Position numbers and translations under genes: made by a program. 20,304 bases of DNA, from positions 1 through 20,304 of IMG/VR virus record IMGVR_UViG_3300025889_001208. One strand, written 5' to 3'. The stretch is from a virus. This document shows positions 14,741-20,304 of the stretch, piece after piece (within the stretch, counting starts at the first letter, position 1; each line of letters starts with the position of its first letter). Under the pieces are notes generated by a model that saw nothing but the letters and a program-made list of their open reading frames with translations, was not told where the DNA came from and did not search any database.

Positions 14741-15949
14741 ATGACAATATCTTCAACAACAGTAAAAAATTCATATTCAGGCAATGGTAGTAATGACACC
14801 TTTGTTTATGGTTTTAAGATATTTGCCAATACAGATTTACAAGTTATCATTAGGTCTGCTGCAGGAACAGAGACAACCAAAACTTTAACAACTCATTATA
14901 CAGTCACAGGTGTAGGTAGTGCTTCAGGAGGTAATGTCGTATTTACTGCAGGCAATATTCCTACTGCCACAGAGACAGTTGTTTTAATTAGGAATGTCCC
15001 GCAAACTCAAGCGATAGATTATATCGCTAATGATCCATTCCCTGCGGAGACACACGAAGAGGGTTTGGATCGTGCAACCATGACAACTCAACAAGTTCAA
15101 GAAGAACTTAATCGATCCATAAAACTTTCAAGAACGAACACCATGACCTCTACAGAATTTACTGTGGGTGCAACAGAAAGAGCTAATAAAGTTTTAGCTT
15201 TTGATTCTTCAGGAGAACTTTCAGTTACTCAAGAACTAGGAACTTTCAAAGGAACTGATGCTACTGTAACTACTGCAGCTTATGTACAAAGAGATATTAT
15301 TAAATCAACAACTACAGCTCAACTTAACAATATTTATATTTGTGTAGCTGATTCTGTTGTTGGAGATAGTTTAACAGACACAGATCATTTTCAATTATTA
15401 GTCGATGCTGTATCAGCAGCAACTTCGGCTACCGCTGCAGCGACAAGTGCAACAGCTTCTGCTAATTCAGCTACTGCTTCTGCTTCATCTGCATCAACAG
15501 CTTCTACACAAGCATCTAATGCTTCTACATCTGCATCTACTGCATCAACACAAGCAACCAACGCAGCTAATTCTGCTACTGCCGCAGCATCAAGTGCTTC
15601 AGATGCCGCTGCATCTTTTGATAGTTTTGATGATACTTATTTAGGAGCTAAATCTTCAGCTCCATCAACAGACAACGATGGAAATGCTTTAGCAACGGGT
15701 GCATTATATTTCAATTCATCTACAGGAGCTTTAAATGTTTGGTCAGGGTCTGCATGGGTAGCAATACAAGCAGATACAGATGTCAAAGTTTCAGTATCAG
15801 CGAATGATACAACACCTAACTTCTTACTTGCTAAATTAACTGCTGGAACAAATATTAGTTTAACAGAAACTAATGATGGCGGTAACGAAACAATAACAAT
15901 AACTAATACAGGGGAAGATCCAACAGCTCTTGCAATAGCATTAGGATAA
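14741..15949 (+). CDS. tail fibre protein with T7 gp17-like N-terminus
   Basis: This 402-aa protein (T7 gp17 is about 553 aa) follows the internal proteins. Residues about 8-135 form the virion-attachment domain of the T7 tail-fibre family: KNSYSGNGSNDTFVYGFKIF, ETVVLIRNVPQTQAIDYIAN, DPFPAETHEEGLDRATMTTQ, QVQEELNRSIKLS. Residues 225-292 are an Ala/Ser/Thr repeat (see separate entry) that probably forms a helical rod. It is followed by FDDTYLGAKSSAPSTDNDG and ALYFNSSTGALNVWSGSAWV, a module common in phage fibres. The C-terminus ends with a short beta segment (GTNISLTETNDGGNETITIT) and no large receptor-binding head. The following fibre-like genes probably supply the tip. The spacer from 14707 to 14740 holds only a weak ribosome site (AGAGAAAC). 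Confidence 0.9.
   Translation: MTISSTTVKNSYSGNGSNDTFVYGFKIFANTDLQVIIRSAAGTETTKTLTTHYTVTGVGSASGGNVVFTAGNIPTATETVVLIRNVPQTQAIDYIANDPFPAETHEEGLDRATMTTQQVQEELNRSIKLSRTNTMTSTEFTVGATERANKVLAFDSSGELSVTQELGTFKGTDATVTTAAYVQRDIIKSTTTAQLNNIYICVADSVVGDSLTDTDHFQLLVDAVSAATSATAAATSATASANSATASASSASTASTQASNASTSASTASTQATNAANSATAAASSASDAAASFDSFDDTYLGAKSSAPSTDNDGNALATGALYFNSSTGALNVWSGSAWVAIQADTDVKVSVSANDTTPNFLLAKLTAGTNISLTETNDGGNETITITNTGEDPTALAIALG
15413..15616 (+). repeat. Ala/Ser/Thr-rich repeat coding segment in tail fibre
   Basis: About 68 consecutive codons are almost only Ala, Ser and Thr with spaced Asn and Gln (units such as ASTASTQASNAS and ASTASTQATNAA). At DNA level this is a degenerate repeat of GCATCTACTGCTTC-like units. 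Such segments form the rod of many phage fibres and are prone to length change by slippage. The other frames show low-complexity Leu/Gln/His shadows that are not genes. Confidence 0.85.
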
Positions 15950-16349: not shown

Positions 16350-17093
16350 TTGGCTTACATTGGAAAAGTACCTGCTAATGCACCCTTAACATCAAGCGAT
16401 ATTGCTGATGGTATTATCTCTACTGCTGATTTAGCTAACACAGCTGTAACAGGAGCAAAGGTAAATACAGATGTTATTTCTGCACAGACAGCACTAGCGA
16501 CAGAACCAGCTGATACAGATGAATTTCTAGTTTCAGATGCTGGAGTAATTAAAAGAATTGATTACAGTTTAATTAAAGGTGGTGGTACTCACGTTTTATT
16601 ATCCACTACAACAGTTAGTATCAGTGCAACAGTAGATATTACATCAAACATAGATAGCACATATAAAACTTATATGTTTCAATTTATTAATTTACACCCA
16701 TATAATAATAATGTTAATTTACAATTACTATTTTTTACAGGTGGTTCAATTGAAACTTCGTCTATTTATGATTACTCTTATCGTAGGATTACATCTGATA
16801 GTGCAACTAATTTTGGTAATGCACAAAATGCAGCACAAATAGATATGACAAATGCTCAATCTAATAATAATGATGGTGGTTTAAGTGGTAGGCTTTTTTT
16901 ACACGATCCTAGCAATACAAGTTTTGATACGATTGCGAATTGGACTTTTGCTTATCAACACGATGGAAATAAAGTTTCTGAAGTTGCAGGTTCAGGTAGA
17001 ATAGAAGATAATACAGCAGTAACAGGCGTACGATTTAAAATGTCTGGCGGAGAGATTGAAAGTGGAATTATAAAATTATATGGAATTACATAG
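16350..17093 (+). CDS. tail fibre / adhesin-like protein, MAYIG type, with C-terminal 'FINLHP' domain
   Basis: This 247-aa protein is read from a TTG start at 16350 with TAGGAG at 16338-16343, which gives the expected MAYIGKVPANAPLTSSDIAD. Residues 1-78 carry the standard fibre stalk motifs (GIISTADLANTAVTGAKV; ATEPADTDEFLVSDAGVIKR; IDYSLI). Residues about 82-247 form a beta-rich domain with IDSTYKTYMFQFINLHP, GGLSGRLFLHDPSNTSFDTI and a C-terminus RFKMSGGEIESGIIKLYGIT. The same domain makes up the whole of the three proteins encoded at 18269-20086, so this is a stalk-domain fusion of that family. It probably contributes to host binding; the function is inferred. The TTG start is unusual here, as nearly all neighbours use ATG. 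Confidence 0.82.
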   Translation: MAYIGKVPANAPLTSSDIADGIISTADLANTAVTGAKVNTDVISAQTALATEPADTDEFLVSDAGVIKRIDYSLIKGGGTHVLLSTTTVSISATVDITSNIDSTYKTYMFQFINLHPYNNNVNLQLLFFTGGSIETSSIYDYSYRRITSDSATNFGNAQNAAQIDMTNAQSNNNDGGLSGRLFLHDPSNTSFDTIANWTFAYQHDGNKVSEVAGSGRIEDNTAVTGVRFKMSGGEIESGIIKLYGIT

Positions 17094-17102
17094 GAGTAAA
17101 AC

Positions 17103-17948
17103 ATGGCATATATAGGACAATCACCATCAATAGGAAACTTTCAAGTCTGCGATGCTATTAGTGTAGTTAATGGTCAAGCTGCATATACGATGCAAGTATC
17201 ATCTGTTAATGTAGTACCTGAAACAGCTAATCATATGTTGGTTAGTTTAAATGGTGTAATTCAAGCACCTGGTAGTTCTTATACTGTATCAGGTTCAACG
17301 ATTACATTTGCATCGAACCTTGTAACAGGTGATGTTATAGACTTTATTCATATACTAGGATCAGTTCTTGATCTTGGAGTACCATCTGACAGTACAGTAT
17401 CTCTTGCTAAACTAACAGCAACAGGAACTAAAGATGCTACAACTTTTTTAAGAGGTGATAATACATTTGCAGCACCTAGCGGTGGAAAAATTGCACAAGT
17501 TGTTTCAACAACTTTATCAACTGTAACATCAACAACATCAGATTCATTTAGTGATATTAGTGGTTTAGCAGTATCTATAACTCCAAGTGCTACCAGTTCT
17601 AAAGTGTTAGTTTTTGTTAATTTATCTTTAGGATCACAAGGAACTTATTCTTGTCAATTAAGATTAATGAGAGATAGTACAGCTATTTGTATTGGAACTG
17701 ATAGTGGAATTGGTGGAAGCCAACCACAAGCAACTTTTCATCAAAAAGGTTGGAGTGATACTGCTATTGTTAATCAAGGAATGAATTTTTTAGATAGTCC
17801 AAGTTCAACATCTTCAATAAGTTATAATGTAGAGTGGAGAGAAACAGAAAACACAACTTTATATTTAAACAGAATGTACACAACTAGCAACAATGTAAGT
17901 TATCCTTGGGTTGCAAGTACAATTACAGCAATGGAGGTATTAACTTAA
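17103..17948 (+). CDS. tail fibre-like protein, MAYIG type
   Basis: This 281-aa protein has the ribosome site TAGGAG at 17092-17097 and starts at the ATG at 17103. Residues 1-95 are a widespread fibre module: MAYIGQSPSIGNFQV, NMLVSLNGVIQAPG-type text (here HMLVSLNGVIQAPGSSYTVS) and TITFASNLVTGDVIDFIHIL. A linker with STVSLAKLTATGTKDATTFL and RGDNTFAAPSGG follows. The C-terminal domain (about 130-281) begins KIAQVVSTTLSTVTSTTSDS and continues GLAVSITPSATSSKVLVFVN. It is a beta-rich tip module seen in many marine phage proteins. It shares the N-terminal MAYIG start with the previous gene but has an unrelated C-terminal domain. It is likely part of the fibre complex. The stop overlaps the next start (TAATG). 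Confidence 0.82.
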   Translation: MAYIGQSPSIGNFQVCDAISVVNGQAAYTMQVSSVNVVPETANHMLVSLNGVIQAPGSSYTVSGSTITFASNLVTGDVIDFIHILGSVLDLGVPSDSTVSLAKLTATGTKDATTFLRGDNTFAAPSGGKIAQVVSTTLSTVTSTTSDSFSDISGLAVSITPSATSSKVLVFVNLSLGSQGTYSCQLRLMRDSTAICIGTDSGIGGSQPQATFHQKGWSDTAIVNQGMNFLDSPSSTSSISYNVEWRETENTTLYLNRMYTTSNNVSYPWVASTITAMEVLT

Positions 17949-18265
17949 TGGATATAATTCAATCAATCGTAGCCATTAGAAAAGAACAAGATGGTGTTCA
18001 TGCTAAAGTAAGTGTAGATCAAAATGATATAAATAAAATTACTTGGCATGATGGTAATCCAACTAATATTACAAATGAACAAATTTTAGCAAAACAAGAA
18101 GAATTACAAGCTGACTATGATGCTAAACAATATCAAAGAGATAGAGAAGTTGCTTATCCTACAATTCAAGAACAACTTGATATGCAGTATTGGGATAATG
18201 TTAATGGTACTACAACTTGGAAAGACGCAATAGCTAAAGTAAAATCAGACAATCCAAAGGAGTAA
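17948..18265 (+). CDS. small tail-assembly-like protein (YPTIQEQLDMQYWD motif)
   Basis: This 105-aa protein is read from the ATG at 17948, which overlaps the previous stop (TAATG at 17946-17950); GGAGG at 17933-17937 is the ribosome site. An in-frame ATG at 17906 lies inside the previous gene and is not favoured. The N-terminal half is polar (MDIIQSIVAIRKEQDGVHAK), the middle is helical (EQILAKQEELQADYDAKQYQ), and the C-terminus carries AYPTIQEQLDMQYWDNVNG, then TTWKDAIAKVKSDNPKE. The pattern 'YP.I.EQLDM.Y.D......W..AI..VK...PK' recurs in small proteins near fibre genes of many phages, often labelled tail or tail fibre assembly proteins. The function is unproven; a fibre chaperone is a reasonable inference. 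Confidence 0.78.
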   Translation: MDIIQSIVAIRKEQDGVHAKVSVDQNDINKITWHDGNPTNITNEQILAKQEELQADYDAKQYQRDREVAYPTIQEQLDMQYWDNVNGTTTWKDAIAKVKSDNPKE

Positions 18266-18268
18266 TCA

Positions 18269-18874
18269 ATGGCTCTTAACTTTGCTAACAACAATTCCTT
18301 ATCATCAATTACATCTTTACCAGCTAGTATTAGTGGTGGTGGATTAAATTTAATATCTACACAGACAGCTAGTGGTAGTTCTTCATTATCTTTTACAAGT
18401 GGAATAGATAGTACCTATAAAGAGTATGTATTTAAGTTTATAAACATTCACCCAGCTAGTGATGGTGTAAATTTTTCATTTCAAGCAAGTACAAATGGTG
18501 GAAGTAGTTATGGTGTAACAGCAACAACTACTACTTTTGTAGCTAATCATAAAGAAGATGGAAGTGATAGCAACTTTTATTACAATACAGGAATTGATTT
18601 AGCACAATCAACAAATTATGCGATCATAAATGATTATTATGTAAATGATAATGATGCTTCAGGAAGTGGAACTTTACACTTGTTTGAACCATCAAGCGAT
18701 ACGTTCGTAAAGCATTTTATAGCAGATTTCAACAATCTATATAAACCAACATATACTAATAGAACATTGTCAGCTGGTTATTTTAATTCTACGTCAGTTA
18801 TTGATGCAGTAGATTTTAAATTTAGTAGTGGCAACATAGATAGTGGAGTTATAAAATTATATGGCATTAGTTAA
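18269..18874 (+). CDS. fibre/adhesin-like paralog 1 ('FINIHPASD' family)
   Basis: This 201-aa protein is the first of three tandem paralogs. It consists of a short N-terminus (MALNFANNNSLSSITSLP) and one beta-rich domain that is also found at the C-terminus of the protein encoded at 16350. Conserved blocks are FTSGIDSTYKEYVFKFINIH, PASDGVNFSF, NDASGSGTLHLFEPSSDT, FVKHFI, AGYFNSTSVIDAVDFKF and SSGNIDSGVIKLYGIS. AAAGGAG at 18257-18263 is the ribosome site. The last 14 bases overlap the start of paralog 2 in another frame. The family is frequent in marine phages as an unclassified structural protein. A receptor-contacting fibre component is inferred from its position in the fibre cluster. No catalytic motif is visible. 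Confidence 0.8.
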   Translation: MALNFANNNSLSSITSLPASISGGGLNLISTQTASGSSSLSFTSGIDSTYKEYVFKFINIHPASDGVNFSFQASTNGGSSYGVTATTTTFVANHKEDGSDSNFYYNTGIDLAQSTNYAIINDYYVNDNDASGSGTLHLFEPSSDTFVKHFIADFNNLYKPTYTNRTLSAGYFNSTSVIDAVDFKFSSGNIDSGVIKLYGIS

Positions 18875-19060
18875 ATACAATAACAATTCAATTTCAAGTG
18901 TAACTGCTTTAGATAGTATAGCAAGTGGTTCATTAGTTTTACTTGCTACAAACACTATTACATCAGGAGTATCGTCATCATCTTTTACTTCTAATATTGA
19001 TAGCACTTATGATACTTATTTATTTAAATTTATAAGTATGCACCCAGCTAGTGATGGTGT
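18449..19060 (+). repeat. 20-nt exact repeat shared by paralogs 1 and 2
   Basis: CACCCAGCTAGTGATGGTGT occurs at 18449-18468 and again at 19041-19060, 592 nt apart in the same codon phase, encoding the conserved HPASDG core. This is the longest exact identity I noticed between the tandem paralogs. It is a natural site for recombination that would delete or hybridise copies. Confidence 0.8.
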
Positions 19061-19472
19061 TAGCTTAACTTTTAATGGTTCAAGTGATGGAGGTTCAAAT
19101 TATAATGTTACAAAAACAACAACTTACTTTGAAGCTATACATAATGAGAGTGACTCATCAACAGGTTTAAATTATCAAGCTAGTTTAGATATTGCACAAG
19201 GTACAGGTTATCAAGAACTATTAAGATTAATTGGAAACGATAATGATCAATCAGGAAGCGGAAAATTATTTTTATTTTCACCGTCTAATACAACTTTTGT
19301 TAAGCATTTTATATACACAGGTTCTAGTGTTACAAGTAGTGACTATGAAAATAATAATTTTGTAGCTGGTTATTTTAACACTACGTCTGCTATTAATGCA
19401 ATAGATTTTAAGATGTCGTCAGGAAACATTGATAGCGGTGTTATCAAAATGTATGGATTAAGCAAATCATGA
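18861..19472 (+). CDS. fibre/adhesin-like paralog 2
   Basis: This 203-aa protein aligns end to end with paralog 1: MALVKYNNNSISSVTALDSI, FTSNIDSTYDTYLFKFISMH, PASDGVSLTFNGSSDGGSNY, QSGSGKLFLFSPSNTT, FVKHFI and AGYFNTTSAINAIDFKM, with the end SSGNIDSGVIKMYGLSKS. The start codon at 18861 lies inside the final codons of paralog 1, and the terminal Leu-Tyr-Gly-Ile-Ser codons of that gene also encode its MALVK start. No separate ribosome site is visible, so translation is probably coupled. The central region (about 65-115) differs more from its sister genes than the flanks do. That suggests variable surface loops between conserved framework blocks. Confidence 0.8.
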   Translation: MALVKYNNNSISSVTALDSIASGSLVLLATNTITSGVSSSSFTSNIDSTYDTYLFKFISMHPASDGVSLTFNGSSDGGSNYNVTKTTTYFEAIHNESDSSTGLNYQASLDIAQGTGYQELLRLIGNDNDQSGSGKLFLFSPSNTTFVKHFIYTGSSVTSSDYENNNFVAGYFNTTSAINAIDFKMSSGNIDSGVIKMYGLSKS

Positions 19473-20086
19473 GCATAATTAAATTAAATAACAGAGCAGT
19501 AAAAGATGCAACAGCAGTAGGTAGCATAACAGGACTTGGTAATTTAATATTAATTAAAACACAAACTGCTAGTAGCTCAGCATCTATATCTTTTGTTGAT
19601 GGTGCTAGTTCAGTAGTGCTAGATAATACTTACAAAGAATACATATTTACATTTAATAATATTCACCCAGCTTCAGATGCTAATCTTACTTTTAATGCCT
19701 CAGCTGATACTGGTTCTAATTATAATATAGCAGCTACAACAACTCTTTTTGAAGCATATCATAATGAAGCTGATAGTTCTGCTGCTCTTGCTTATTCAAC
19801 ATCAAACGATCATGCACAAGACACAGGTTTTAAAAAACTTGCTATTTCTATTGGAAATGGAAATGATGAATGTGCTAGTGGTTATTTACATTTATTTGAA
19901 CCAAGTAGCACTACCTTTGTAAAAAATTACATGGGGGTAATACAAAATTATCAATCTGATAATTATTCACAAGCTGAACATTTTGCTGGTTATTATAATA
20001 CAACATCAGCAATAGATGCTATTCAGTTTAAAATGAGTTCAGGCAATATAGATGCTGGAACAATCTCACTTTACGGAGTGGTTTAA
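19469..20086 (+). CDS. fibre/adhesin-like paralog 3
   Basis: This 205-aa protein is the third tandem copy: MSIIKLNNRAVKDATAVGSI, then LDNTYKEYIFTFNNIHPASD, FNASADTGSNYNIAATTTLF, ECASGYLHLFEPSSTTFVKN and AGYYNTTSAIDAIQFKMSSG, ending NIDAGTISLYGVV. The start overlaps the previous stop (ATGA at 19469-19472). It is the most diverged of the three and has a few extra residues near position 45 (SFVDGASSVV). As in paralog 2, the N-terminus is short and no stalk is present. The protein probably assembles on another fibre protein or acts as an interchangeable tip, which is inference. The gap to the next gene (20087-20120) contains only its ribosome site. Confidence 0.78.
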   Translation: MSIIKLNNRAVKDATAVGSITGLGNLILIKTQTASSSASISFVDGASSVVLDNTYKEYIFTFNNIHPASDANLTFNASADTGSNYNIAATTTLFEAYHNEADSSAALAYSTSNDHAQDTGFKKLAISIGNGNDECASGYLHLFEPSSTTFVKNYMGVIQNYQSDNYSQAEHFAGYYNTTSAIDAIQFKMSSGNIDAGTISLYGVV

Positions 20087-20120: not shown

Positions 20121-20304
20121 ATGGCAAGATATAAAATGGTGAATGGAGAAAGAATCCAATTCACATCAGCAGAAGAAACAGCAAGAGACGCAGAAGAAGC
20201 AGCTTGGGAATCTGGTGCTTTTGATAGAGCAATGGCAGACCTAAGACAAAGAAGAAATGCTTTGTTAGCAGCGACTGACTTAAATGCTTTGTCAGATGTA
20301 ACAA
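20121..20304 (+). CDS. small tail-assembly chaperone-like protein (partial, cut by window end)
   Basis: The first 61 codons are visible. They read MARYKMVNGERIQFTSAEET, then ARDAEEAAWESGAFDRAMAD and LRQRRNALLAATDLNALSDV, and continue past the window. The clear ribosome site is CAGGAG at 20108-20113. The combination of an NGE...T..EE..AR.AEE.AW start with 'LR..RN.LLA.TD..ALSDV' is typical of the short phage tail assembly chaperone-like family (similar to Phage_tail_APC). These genes often sit beside fibre genes. Function is inferred from the family pattern. It is unrelated in sequence to the other small assembly-like protein encoded at 17948. The C-terminus and true length cannot be judged here. 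Confidence 0.75.
   Translation, partial: MARYKMVNGERIQFTSAEETARDAEEAAWESGAFDRAMADLRQRRNALLAATDLNALSDVT

Follow-up and report, generated by a model that had tools for sequence, protein, structure and literature searches.

Three consecutive pelagiphage genes may encode a heterotrimeric receptor-binding tip with interchangeable heads

Three short, overlapping genes in the host-recognition module of a pelagiphage genome fragment probably encode the chains of a receptor-binding tip that is an obligate heterotrimer (1:1:1) and whose heads are interchangeable, a reading to which we assign a probability of about 0.75. Receptor-binding tips of tailed phages are homotrimers as a rule, and a literature search on heterotrimeric tails and fibres turned up a virophage case alone. 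The window, i.e., the whole stretch of 20,304 nucleotides that was analysed (IMG/VR record IMGVR_UViG_3300025889_001208), encodes a portal protein 89% identical to that of HTVC010P, and both portal and module synteny match HTVC010P-type pelagiphages; on these sequence grounds it is a fragment of a genome of that type. The virus infects SAR11 bacteria and is very abundant in the ocean. A triplet of short genes is present also in HTVC010P and HTVC034P, and we refer to the products of the three genes in the window, in gene order, as the alpha, beta, and gamma chains (Table 1).

Table 1. Features of the host-recognition module in the window
Feature	Position	Strand	Remarks
Main tail fibre gene, 402 aa	14741..15949	+	PHROG 13893 / 1640 tail protein, residues 1-160
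Small virion-structural-type gene, 121 aa	15975..16340	+	Positional equivalent in HTVC010P, HTVC034P
Stalked member, TTG start, 247 aa	16350..17093	+	MAYIG stalk (~1-78) + PHROG 14820 head (~80-246)
Second MAYIG stalk gene, 281 aa, different head	17103..17948	+	PHROG 18673 (1-146), 6942 (118-279)
Conserved small gene, 105 aa, PHROG 9114	17948..18265	+	Upstream of triplet
Alpha chain, 201 aa	18269..18874	+	Class A N-terminal peptide MALNFANNNSLSSIT...
Alpha exchangeable head cassette, ~residues 61-185, bounds approximate	18449..18823	+	Position signal near chance
Beta chain, 203 aa	18861..19472	+	N-terminal peptide MALVKYNNNSISSVT...
Beta exchangeable head cassette, ~61-185, ~151-168 most variable	19041..19415	+	
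Gamma chain, 205 aa	19469..20086	+	N-terminal peptide MSIIKLNNRAVKDAT...
Gamma exchangeable head cassette, bounds approximate	19664..20032	+	
Tail fibre assembly chaperone gene, 5' part, ends at window edge	20121..20304	+	Directly after triplet

The host-recognition module begins with the main tail fibre gene, whose product resembles phage tail proteins at its N-terminus and is variable in the remainder. The genes of HTVC010P and HTVC034P equivalent in position to the small gene that follows are annotated as "virion structural protein," and the PHROG 9114 gene occurs in the modules of HTVC010P and HTVC019P as well. The putative chaperone gene at the window edge matches PHROG 4912 (tail fibre assembly) weakly (3e-4), and its positional counterparts in HTVC010P and HTVC019P have Pfam Phage_tail_APC hits (2.8e-13 and 2e-9, respectively). 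The fibre/adhesin-type role predicted for this module is supported.

All three short genes match PHROG 14820, a family with no function annotation and no mention of triplets or subunit types, from end to end (E = 1.5e-79, 3.4e-78, and 9e-89 for alpha, beta, and gamma), and residues 75-246 of the stalked protein match it as well (E = 1.3e-23). These values are far beyond chance, which bears out the first-pass annotation in assigning one domain to the three short genes and the C-terminal half of the stalked product. The beta chain is 56% identical to alpha and 52% identical to gamma, and the stalked protein is ~30-36% identical to the short proteins. The interlocking starts and stops noticed in that annotation are real, with overlaps of 14 nt between alpha and beta (18861-18874) and 4 nt between beta and gamma (19469-19472), and each junction overlaps in 146 of 173 triplets. 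The tandem array that it described holds for the three consecutive short ORFs but does not extend to the stalked gene, which is set apart by two genes outside the family, the second MAYIG stalk gene and the PHROG 9114 gene.

Alpha, beta, and gamma are ancient, distinct subunit types and not recent duplicates. Gene position changes 23 times on a 318-leaf tree, compared with 150.6 times after shuffling (minimum, 134), and 66 times on a 621-leaf tree, compared with 294.5 times (minimum, 267). The nearest tree relative sits in another phage for 316 of the 318 genes and in the gene's own triplet for only 2, on which basis recent local duplication is rejected. Whole-protein profiles recover the type correctly in only 84% of cases (520/621) in cross-validation.

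The short genes occur almost exclusively in threes or multiples thereof. A set of 53 complete arrays contains three short genes in 43 cases, six in 9, and one in 1. Across 235 non-redundant loci, an enlarged set to which loci from a motif scan were added independently of similarity rank, 136 whole runs comprise three genes and 14 comprise six (15 once a stalked gene is set aside), the exceptions being isolated. Complete loci (n = 96) carry one triplet in 84 cases, two in 11, and three in 1. Random copy-number variation is thus rejected in favour of arrays of three, six, or nine, and free change in copy number is not supported. None of 323 loci contains a natural fusion that joins two or three family members.

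The identity of each type lies in the N-terminus and in one sheet face formed by the first and last strands. When nearest neighbours were computed in 20-residue windows, they came from the same gene position in 97-99% of cases within residues 1-40, 77-95% within 31-70, and 89% for 181-200, versus 39-64% within 61-190 (chance, 33%). The N-terminal peptides fall into at least six unrelated classes, and none of 207 triplets mixes classes, although trees built from the remainder of the domain show 40, 61, and 53 switches of class for positions 1, 2, and 3, respectively. On the face, type-specific residues occupy alternating positions of adjacent strands, and the predicted interface residues in the window are K51, E52, K56, I58, and K196 in alpha; D51, T52, K56, I58, and K196 in beta; and K51, E52, T56, N58, and S196 (beta numbering) in gamma.

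The face also types triplets of other classes. A classifier that reads 14 columns of the face was trained on class A alone; applied to the other N-terminal classes, it found one alpha, one beta, and one gamma in 62 of 86 non-A triplets (expected, 19.2; maximum of 2,000 shuffles, 34), a test that is held out for residue frequencies and not fully for column choice, as the columns were picked on all classes together. Multiples of three with each type present once are what an obligate heterotrimer predicts, and both the run counts and these 62 triplets show this pattern. The gene orders recovered were permuted, being beta-alpha-gamma in classes D and E and gamma-beta-alpha in classes C and F. When the same typing test was run on the remainder of the domain, there was little signal, with 27 (expected, 19.2) and 21 (expected, 18.5). 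In the other 24 held-out triplets, the classifier did not recover all three types, and the fit to the types is poor for some members of classes B and E.

Covariation between chains is concentrated in the same two regions. Between alpha and beta, 42 of the top 100 pairs join N-terminus to N-terminus (expected, 1.3), and when the N-terminus was left out for class A, alpha52-beta56 was the top alpha-beta pair and beta52-gamma196 was among the top beta-gamma pairs. Inheritance of the N-terminus and face as linked blocks may likewise yield such covariation. A rule pairing an acid at residue 51/52 with a base at residue 196 is satisfied by 91% of class A contacts in ring order, 42% in reversed order, and 35% in homotrimers, values to be read in light of the rule having been picked after the data were seen and of the type order of classes B to F itself being read from the face. 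The beta chain of the window, with D51 and T52 facing S196 of gamma, breaks this rule. Stronger in-register coupling of the class A N-terminal peptides was not seen consistently in all three chain pairs, and we claim no stem geometry.

The centre of the domain (~61-185, with ~151-168 the most variable) has been exchanged freely among types and phages. The conserved framework and variable centre of the first-pass annotation are a true but incomplete description, as the centre is exchanged and the N-terminus and face carry gene identity. The suggestion that heads were recombined onto the MAYIG stalk is in agreement with our survey: among 107 relatives with this stalk, 40 carry the PHROG 14820 head, 13 carry the other head found in the window, and 54 carry other or unrecognised heads. 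Heads at least 70% identical within a triplet, as gene conversion might leave, occurred in 0 of 621, a result that is not significant given the few pairs.

The AF2 model of the beta chain (mean pLDDT, 90) is predicted to be a galectin/ConA-like sandwich, and the model of the stalked protein (pLDDT, 86) combines a helical, low-confidence stalk with a strand-rich head of the same strand order. The fold match is weak (Foldseek E of 6e-3, probability of 0.95; VIA Z of ~7, with matches at Z of ~7-8 being in the range of common arrangements), and at ~10% identity the likeness to galectins and ConA-like lectins may reflect a common sandwich arrangement alone. The structural matches include predicted phage tail fibre proteins. 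Sequence relatives were not found in the PDB; Pfam collar and gp37 gave no match at E ≤ 1, and gp37 was absent among the fold matches listed, which does not exclude it.

We propose that the alpha, beta, and gamma chains would together make up either a short fibre or a tip with which the pelagiphage binds its receptor. The N-terminal peptides (~1-24) would dock as a matched set, probably forming a short trimeric stem and also the plug into the virion, and a sheet face comprising strand ~51-58, the C-terminal strand 190-200, and strand ~25-33 would pack onto the next chain, giving a fixed cyclic alpha-beta-gamma order around the ring. The outer sandwich (~61-185, with 151-168 the most variable) would be the receptor-contact head. 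Because the chain-sorting contacts would lie outside the head, heads could be swapped between phages and positions without loss of assembly, and therefore one tip could show three different heads. The gene overlaps may couple translation of the three chains, and the chaperone encoded just downstream may assist in assembly of the fibre. As a generalization, which we hold with somewhat less confidence, tailed phages of abundant marine bacteria may use an asymmetric three-chain tip in which sorting residues are kept apart from cartridge-like heads, so that each virion has three specificities and some phages have two or three such tips under different N-terminal docking codes.

An unlikely alternative is that each gene encodes a homotrimer of its own and that the three homotrimers are stacked in fixed order on a fibre or sit at three virion sites. 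Constant gene number and ancient types would fit three fixed places, matched N-terminal classes would fit if all three docked to one kind of partner, and single-copy relatives, presumably homotrimers, exist; the neck fibre of cyanophage A-1(L), built of homotrimeric beads, is a precedent (PMC10966104). However, type-specific residues alternate on adjacent strands as in a packing face, residue 52 covaries with residues 56 and 196 of the next chain, acid-base matching is poor for self-contacts, and the gene order is permuted among classes while the composition is still one of each.

The first-pass annotation had left it open whether the tips were alternative or co-assembled, and the sequence patterns favour co-assembly. 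If the genes were local duplicates in competition for a single attachment site, with a broader or altered host range as the result, the great variability of the heads and their demonstrated exchange from phage to phage would fit, and host-recognition genes of the same module are located in metaviromic islands of related phages (Mizuno et al. 2014, PMC3909814). Yet gene number would then be expected to vary and is three, six, or nine, only 2 of 318 genes are closest to a copy in their own triplet, and the retention of one of each type largely refutes this reading, which we consider very improbable. We give just as little credence to secreted or intracellular lectin-like proteins acting outside the virion, e.g., in particle release or the exclusion of superinfecting phages. 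Such a role would accommodate the lack of an assigned function for PHROG 14820 and of any proteomic proof found for a location in the virion, but the genes lie inside the tail-fibre module upstream of a fibre chaperone gene, the same head is fused to a stalk, and the structural matches are to predicted phage tail fibre proteins.

The putative heterotrimer resembles in general plan complement C1q, in which related but different A, B, and C chains carry beta-sandwich heads joined by N-terminal segments. The phage family differs in its origin, in having no collagen stem, and in its best fold matches, and none of the three proteins matched Pfam C1q or TNF at E ≤ 1. A closer parallel in gene organization is the tripartite tail of the Dishui Lake virophage 2 (DSLV2)/Aquatic Virophage 1 lineage, which is reported to be a heterotrimer by co-purification and native PAGE and is encoded by three consecutive paralogous fibre genes that cluster by position and are supposed to bind receptors (PMC12724248). 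The window shares this row of three paralogs, which in its family likewise form clades by position. In contrast, the DSLV2 tail is described as T4 gp37-tip-like with a collar domain, and the window family has a predicted galectin/ConA-like sandwich, matched switches of N-terminal class, heads exchanged between positions, permuted gene order, and whole triplets present twice or three times; it also belongs to tailed phages and not to a virophage. Mizuno et al. 2014 described host-recognition genes resembling C1q and lectins in the metaviromic islands of HTVC010P-type phages, i.e., variable heads beside the tail fibre in the same phage group and module; the part of that paper drawn on here names single C1q and lectin-like genes, and triplets, subunit types, and heterotrimers were not found in it (PMC3909814).

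If the mixed trimer is real, hosts may need to escape three heads simultaneously and phages can exchange heads singly, which would provide a concrete mechanism behind the variability of host-recognition islands in phages that rank among the most abundant in the sea. The N-terminal classes resemble naturally occurring assembly codes that exclude one another. The proposal is testable in the cultured isolates HTVC010P, HTVC034P, and HTVC019P (strain HTCC1062).

Several apparent exceptions to the copy-number pattern were inspected individually. Locus L224 holds a triplet in which the first ORF is extended upstream, and L029 consists of a stalked gene plus six short genes. In L147, bacterial sequence runs directly into a beta gene, and this locus is probably an assembly chimera; L034, with four genes of mixed N-terminal classes, is either real or chimeric. 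The weakly scoring single genes in L275, L291, L225, and L171 are divergent relatives. True singletons are found in L300 and in Lederberg (L085), and since these and the stalked genes exist as single-copy members, two partners are not a requirement for the domain to work.

The window, a virus record of 20,304 bases, encodes a portal protein 89% identical to that of the SAR11 phage HTVC010P and comes from an HTVC010P-type pelagiphage. The first-pass annotation had described one domain shared by three short genes and a neighboring stalked gene, with interlocking starts and stops. That pattern is real and stronger than stated. Each of the four proteins matches PHROG 14820, with the match spanning the entire length of the three short ones, and the short genes overlap by 14 and 4 nt. 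We call a run of three short genes a triplet, its subunit types alpha, beta, and gamma, and the central part of each chain (residues ~61 to 185, beta numbering) the head. Among cultured phages, the same run of three occurs in HTVC010P, HTVC034P, and HTVC019P, the last a member of another family, Autographiviridae; Lederberg has only one, distant copy. Triplets at two further loci (L148 and L150) sit on contigs labeled Pelagibacteraceae or Candidatus Pelagibacter, with names resembling those of single-cell genomes, and these labels support a SAR11 host for such phages.

Gene order of the host-recognition module in the window
Feature	Coordinates	Remark
Main tail fibre gene	14741-15949	Triplet sited in host-recognition module downstream of it
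Small structural-type gene		Between main tail fibre gene and 16350
MAYIG-stalked gene	16350-17093	Head common to triplet
Second MAYIG stalk	17103-17948	Other head
Small conserved gene	17948-18265	Followed by three short genes
Three short genes	starts 18269, 18861, 19469	Alpha, beta, gamma
Fibre-assembly chaperone gene		Start only; directly after three short genes

The three-gene number is not accidental. Complete arrays in the first locus set (n = 53) held three short genes in 43 cases, six in 9, and one in 1, and the enlarged set of 235 non-redundant loci, with additions found by short-motif scan rather than ranked similarity, contained 136 whole runs of three, 14 of six, and a single seven-gene run consisting of a stalked gene and then six. 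Counted as triplets, 84 of 96 complete loci carry one, 11 carry two, and 1 carries three; genuine departures from this pattern are limited to two single-gene loci, a four-gene locus, and what is probably a chimeric contig. At each junction, the genes overlap in 146 of the 173 triplets. A tree built from 106 triplets (318 proteins) required 23 changes of position, versus 150.6 when positions were permuted inside triplets (minimum, 134), and the nearest relative lay in another locus for 316 proteins; with 621 proteins, the values were 66 and 294.5 (minimum, 267). These trees show that the three copies are ancient, distinct types. Both triplets of six-gene arrays hold the same three types, indicating that the triplet is the duplicated unit.

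The N-terminal ~24 residues fall into at least six unrelated classes (A to F), which were never mixed within a triplet (0/207). Fully typed triplets were AAA (92), BBB (39), DDD (10), EEE (8), CCC (3), and FFF (3), and partly typed ones showed no conflict. On trees of the remaining domain, class changed 40, 61, and 53 times at positions 1, 2, and 3, respectively, so that the N-termini switch jointly while the heads move independently. A type classifier built from residue frequencies at 14 face columns, trained on class A triplets alone, was applied to 86 non-class-A triplets with gene order left unused, and it typed 62 of them as holding a single chain each of alpha, beta, and gamma (expected, 19.2; highest of 2,000 shuffles, 34); two controls drawn from the remainder of the domain scored 27 and 21, against 19.2 and 18.5 expected. 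By this typing, class B triplets mostly ran alpha-beta-gamma, those of D and E beta-alpha-gamma, and those of C and F gamma-beta-alpha. Thus composition is kept but order varies, a combination difficult to account for unless the three chains act jointly.

Type is distinguished by the N-terminal peptide, by alternating strand residues 52, 54, 56, 58, 194, 196, and 200, and by columns 27 to 31 and 135 to 137. Sliding windows over class A proteins showed that a gene's closest relative in another locus occupied the same position in 97 to 99% of cases within residues 1 to 40 and 89% at 181 to 200, versus 39 to 64% within 61 to 190 (chance, 33%). Because pairs 52/200, 54/198, 56/196, and 58/194 have antiparallel-partner spacing and 56-196 and 58-196 covary inside gamma chains, we infer that residues 52 to 58 and 194 to 200 lie side by side on one face. 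Covariation between chains, which linked inheritance may raise, is enriched in the N-terminus and this face and depleted in the center, also in class A alone. With class A only and the N-terminus excluded, alpha52-beta56 is the top alpha-beta pair, beta52-gamma196 and beta52-gamma194 are among the top beta-gamma pairs, and gamma-alpha covariation is weak, gamma 51/52 being nearly invariant there. An acid (51/52)-to-base (196) rule, picked post hoc with the data already seen, fits 91% of class A contacts in an alpha-beta-gamma ring and 42% in the reverse ring; the window's own beta-gamma contact breaks it. Given these limits, the chain-to-chain signal is supporting rather than decisive.

We hypothesize, with a probability of roughly 0.75, that the three chains form a heterotrimeric tip. 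They would be made from overlapping genes and then assembled, perhaps aided by the adjoining chaperone, with N-termini and face residues sorting them into a mixed trimer whose outward-facing heads would bind the SAR11 surface; virion location and receptor binding are themselves inferred. Ancient, distinct types could also form three homotrimers sited at fixed places, which we consider unlikely: homotrimers fit the acid-base rule at 35% of contacts, and the one-of-each composition points to joint action. The same composition leaves very little room for alternative tips, which the first-pass annotation had offered beside co-assembled ones, and a role outside the virion seems equally improbable for genes placed in a host-recognition module.

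For a heterotrimeric tip, the closest precedent comes from virophage DSLV2, whose three-gene tail has the same plan: the proteins act as a heterotrimer when co-expressed, and the positions form clades (PMC12724248). The virophage domain is described as T4 gp37-like (PMC12724248), and, judged from that description, we saw no sign of a sequence family common to both systems. No further heterotrimeric tail or fibre was found in the literature searched, which lay mostly outside subscription journals.

Sorting and binding would lie apart in sequence, making heads replaceable. Heads are exchanged between genes: in 45 cross-locus, cross-position gene pairs, the central head is at least 70% shared and the ends are only ~49% identical. 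The head of HTVC034P triplet gene 1 is 93% identical to that of a second-position gene with a different N-terminal class, the identity block beginning near FKFINIH and stopping near SGNID. In relatives, the stalk of the 17103 gene carries a 14820 head in 40 cases, the head it bears in the window in 13, and different or unrecognized heads in 54; the MAYIG stalk (PHROG 18673) adjoining the triplet is a general head-swapping platform, with many heads across phages. Host-recognition genes of this module fall in variable islands in related phages, according to a 2014 study (PMC3909814).

Three loci were unusual. L046 (11-6358), with nine short members, holds three triplets, and at least two N-terminal classes coexist in this one phage. 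L034 (2053-4601) has four genes, two with class E N-termini and then a class A beta and gamma, and is either a recombinant caught mid-exchange or an assembly chimera. In L147 (6816-8558), on a Roseovarius MAG contig, bacterial-looking sequence passes directly into a phage beta gene; the contig is probably chimeric, and host assignment from it is therefore unsafe.

The predicted model of the 18861 product, folded alone, is a beta-strand domain with a mean pLDDT of 90 and a low-confidence N-terminus. Its PDB matches were weak (galectins and GH32 sandwich domains), and predicted viral proteins yielded 102 hits with E ≤ 0.001, including several annotated as tail fibre proteins. The viral hits of this model (18861-19472) also take in a protein from Prochlorococcus phage Syn1 and, at E = 1e-8, a collagen-repeat protein from the giant virus Solumvirus, so the fold of the head may occur widely outside pelagiphages.
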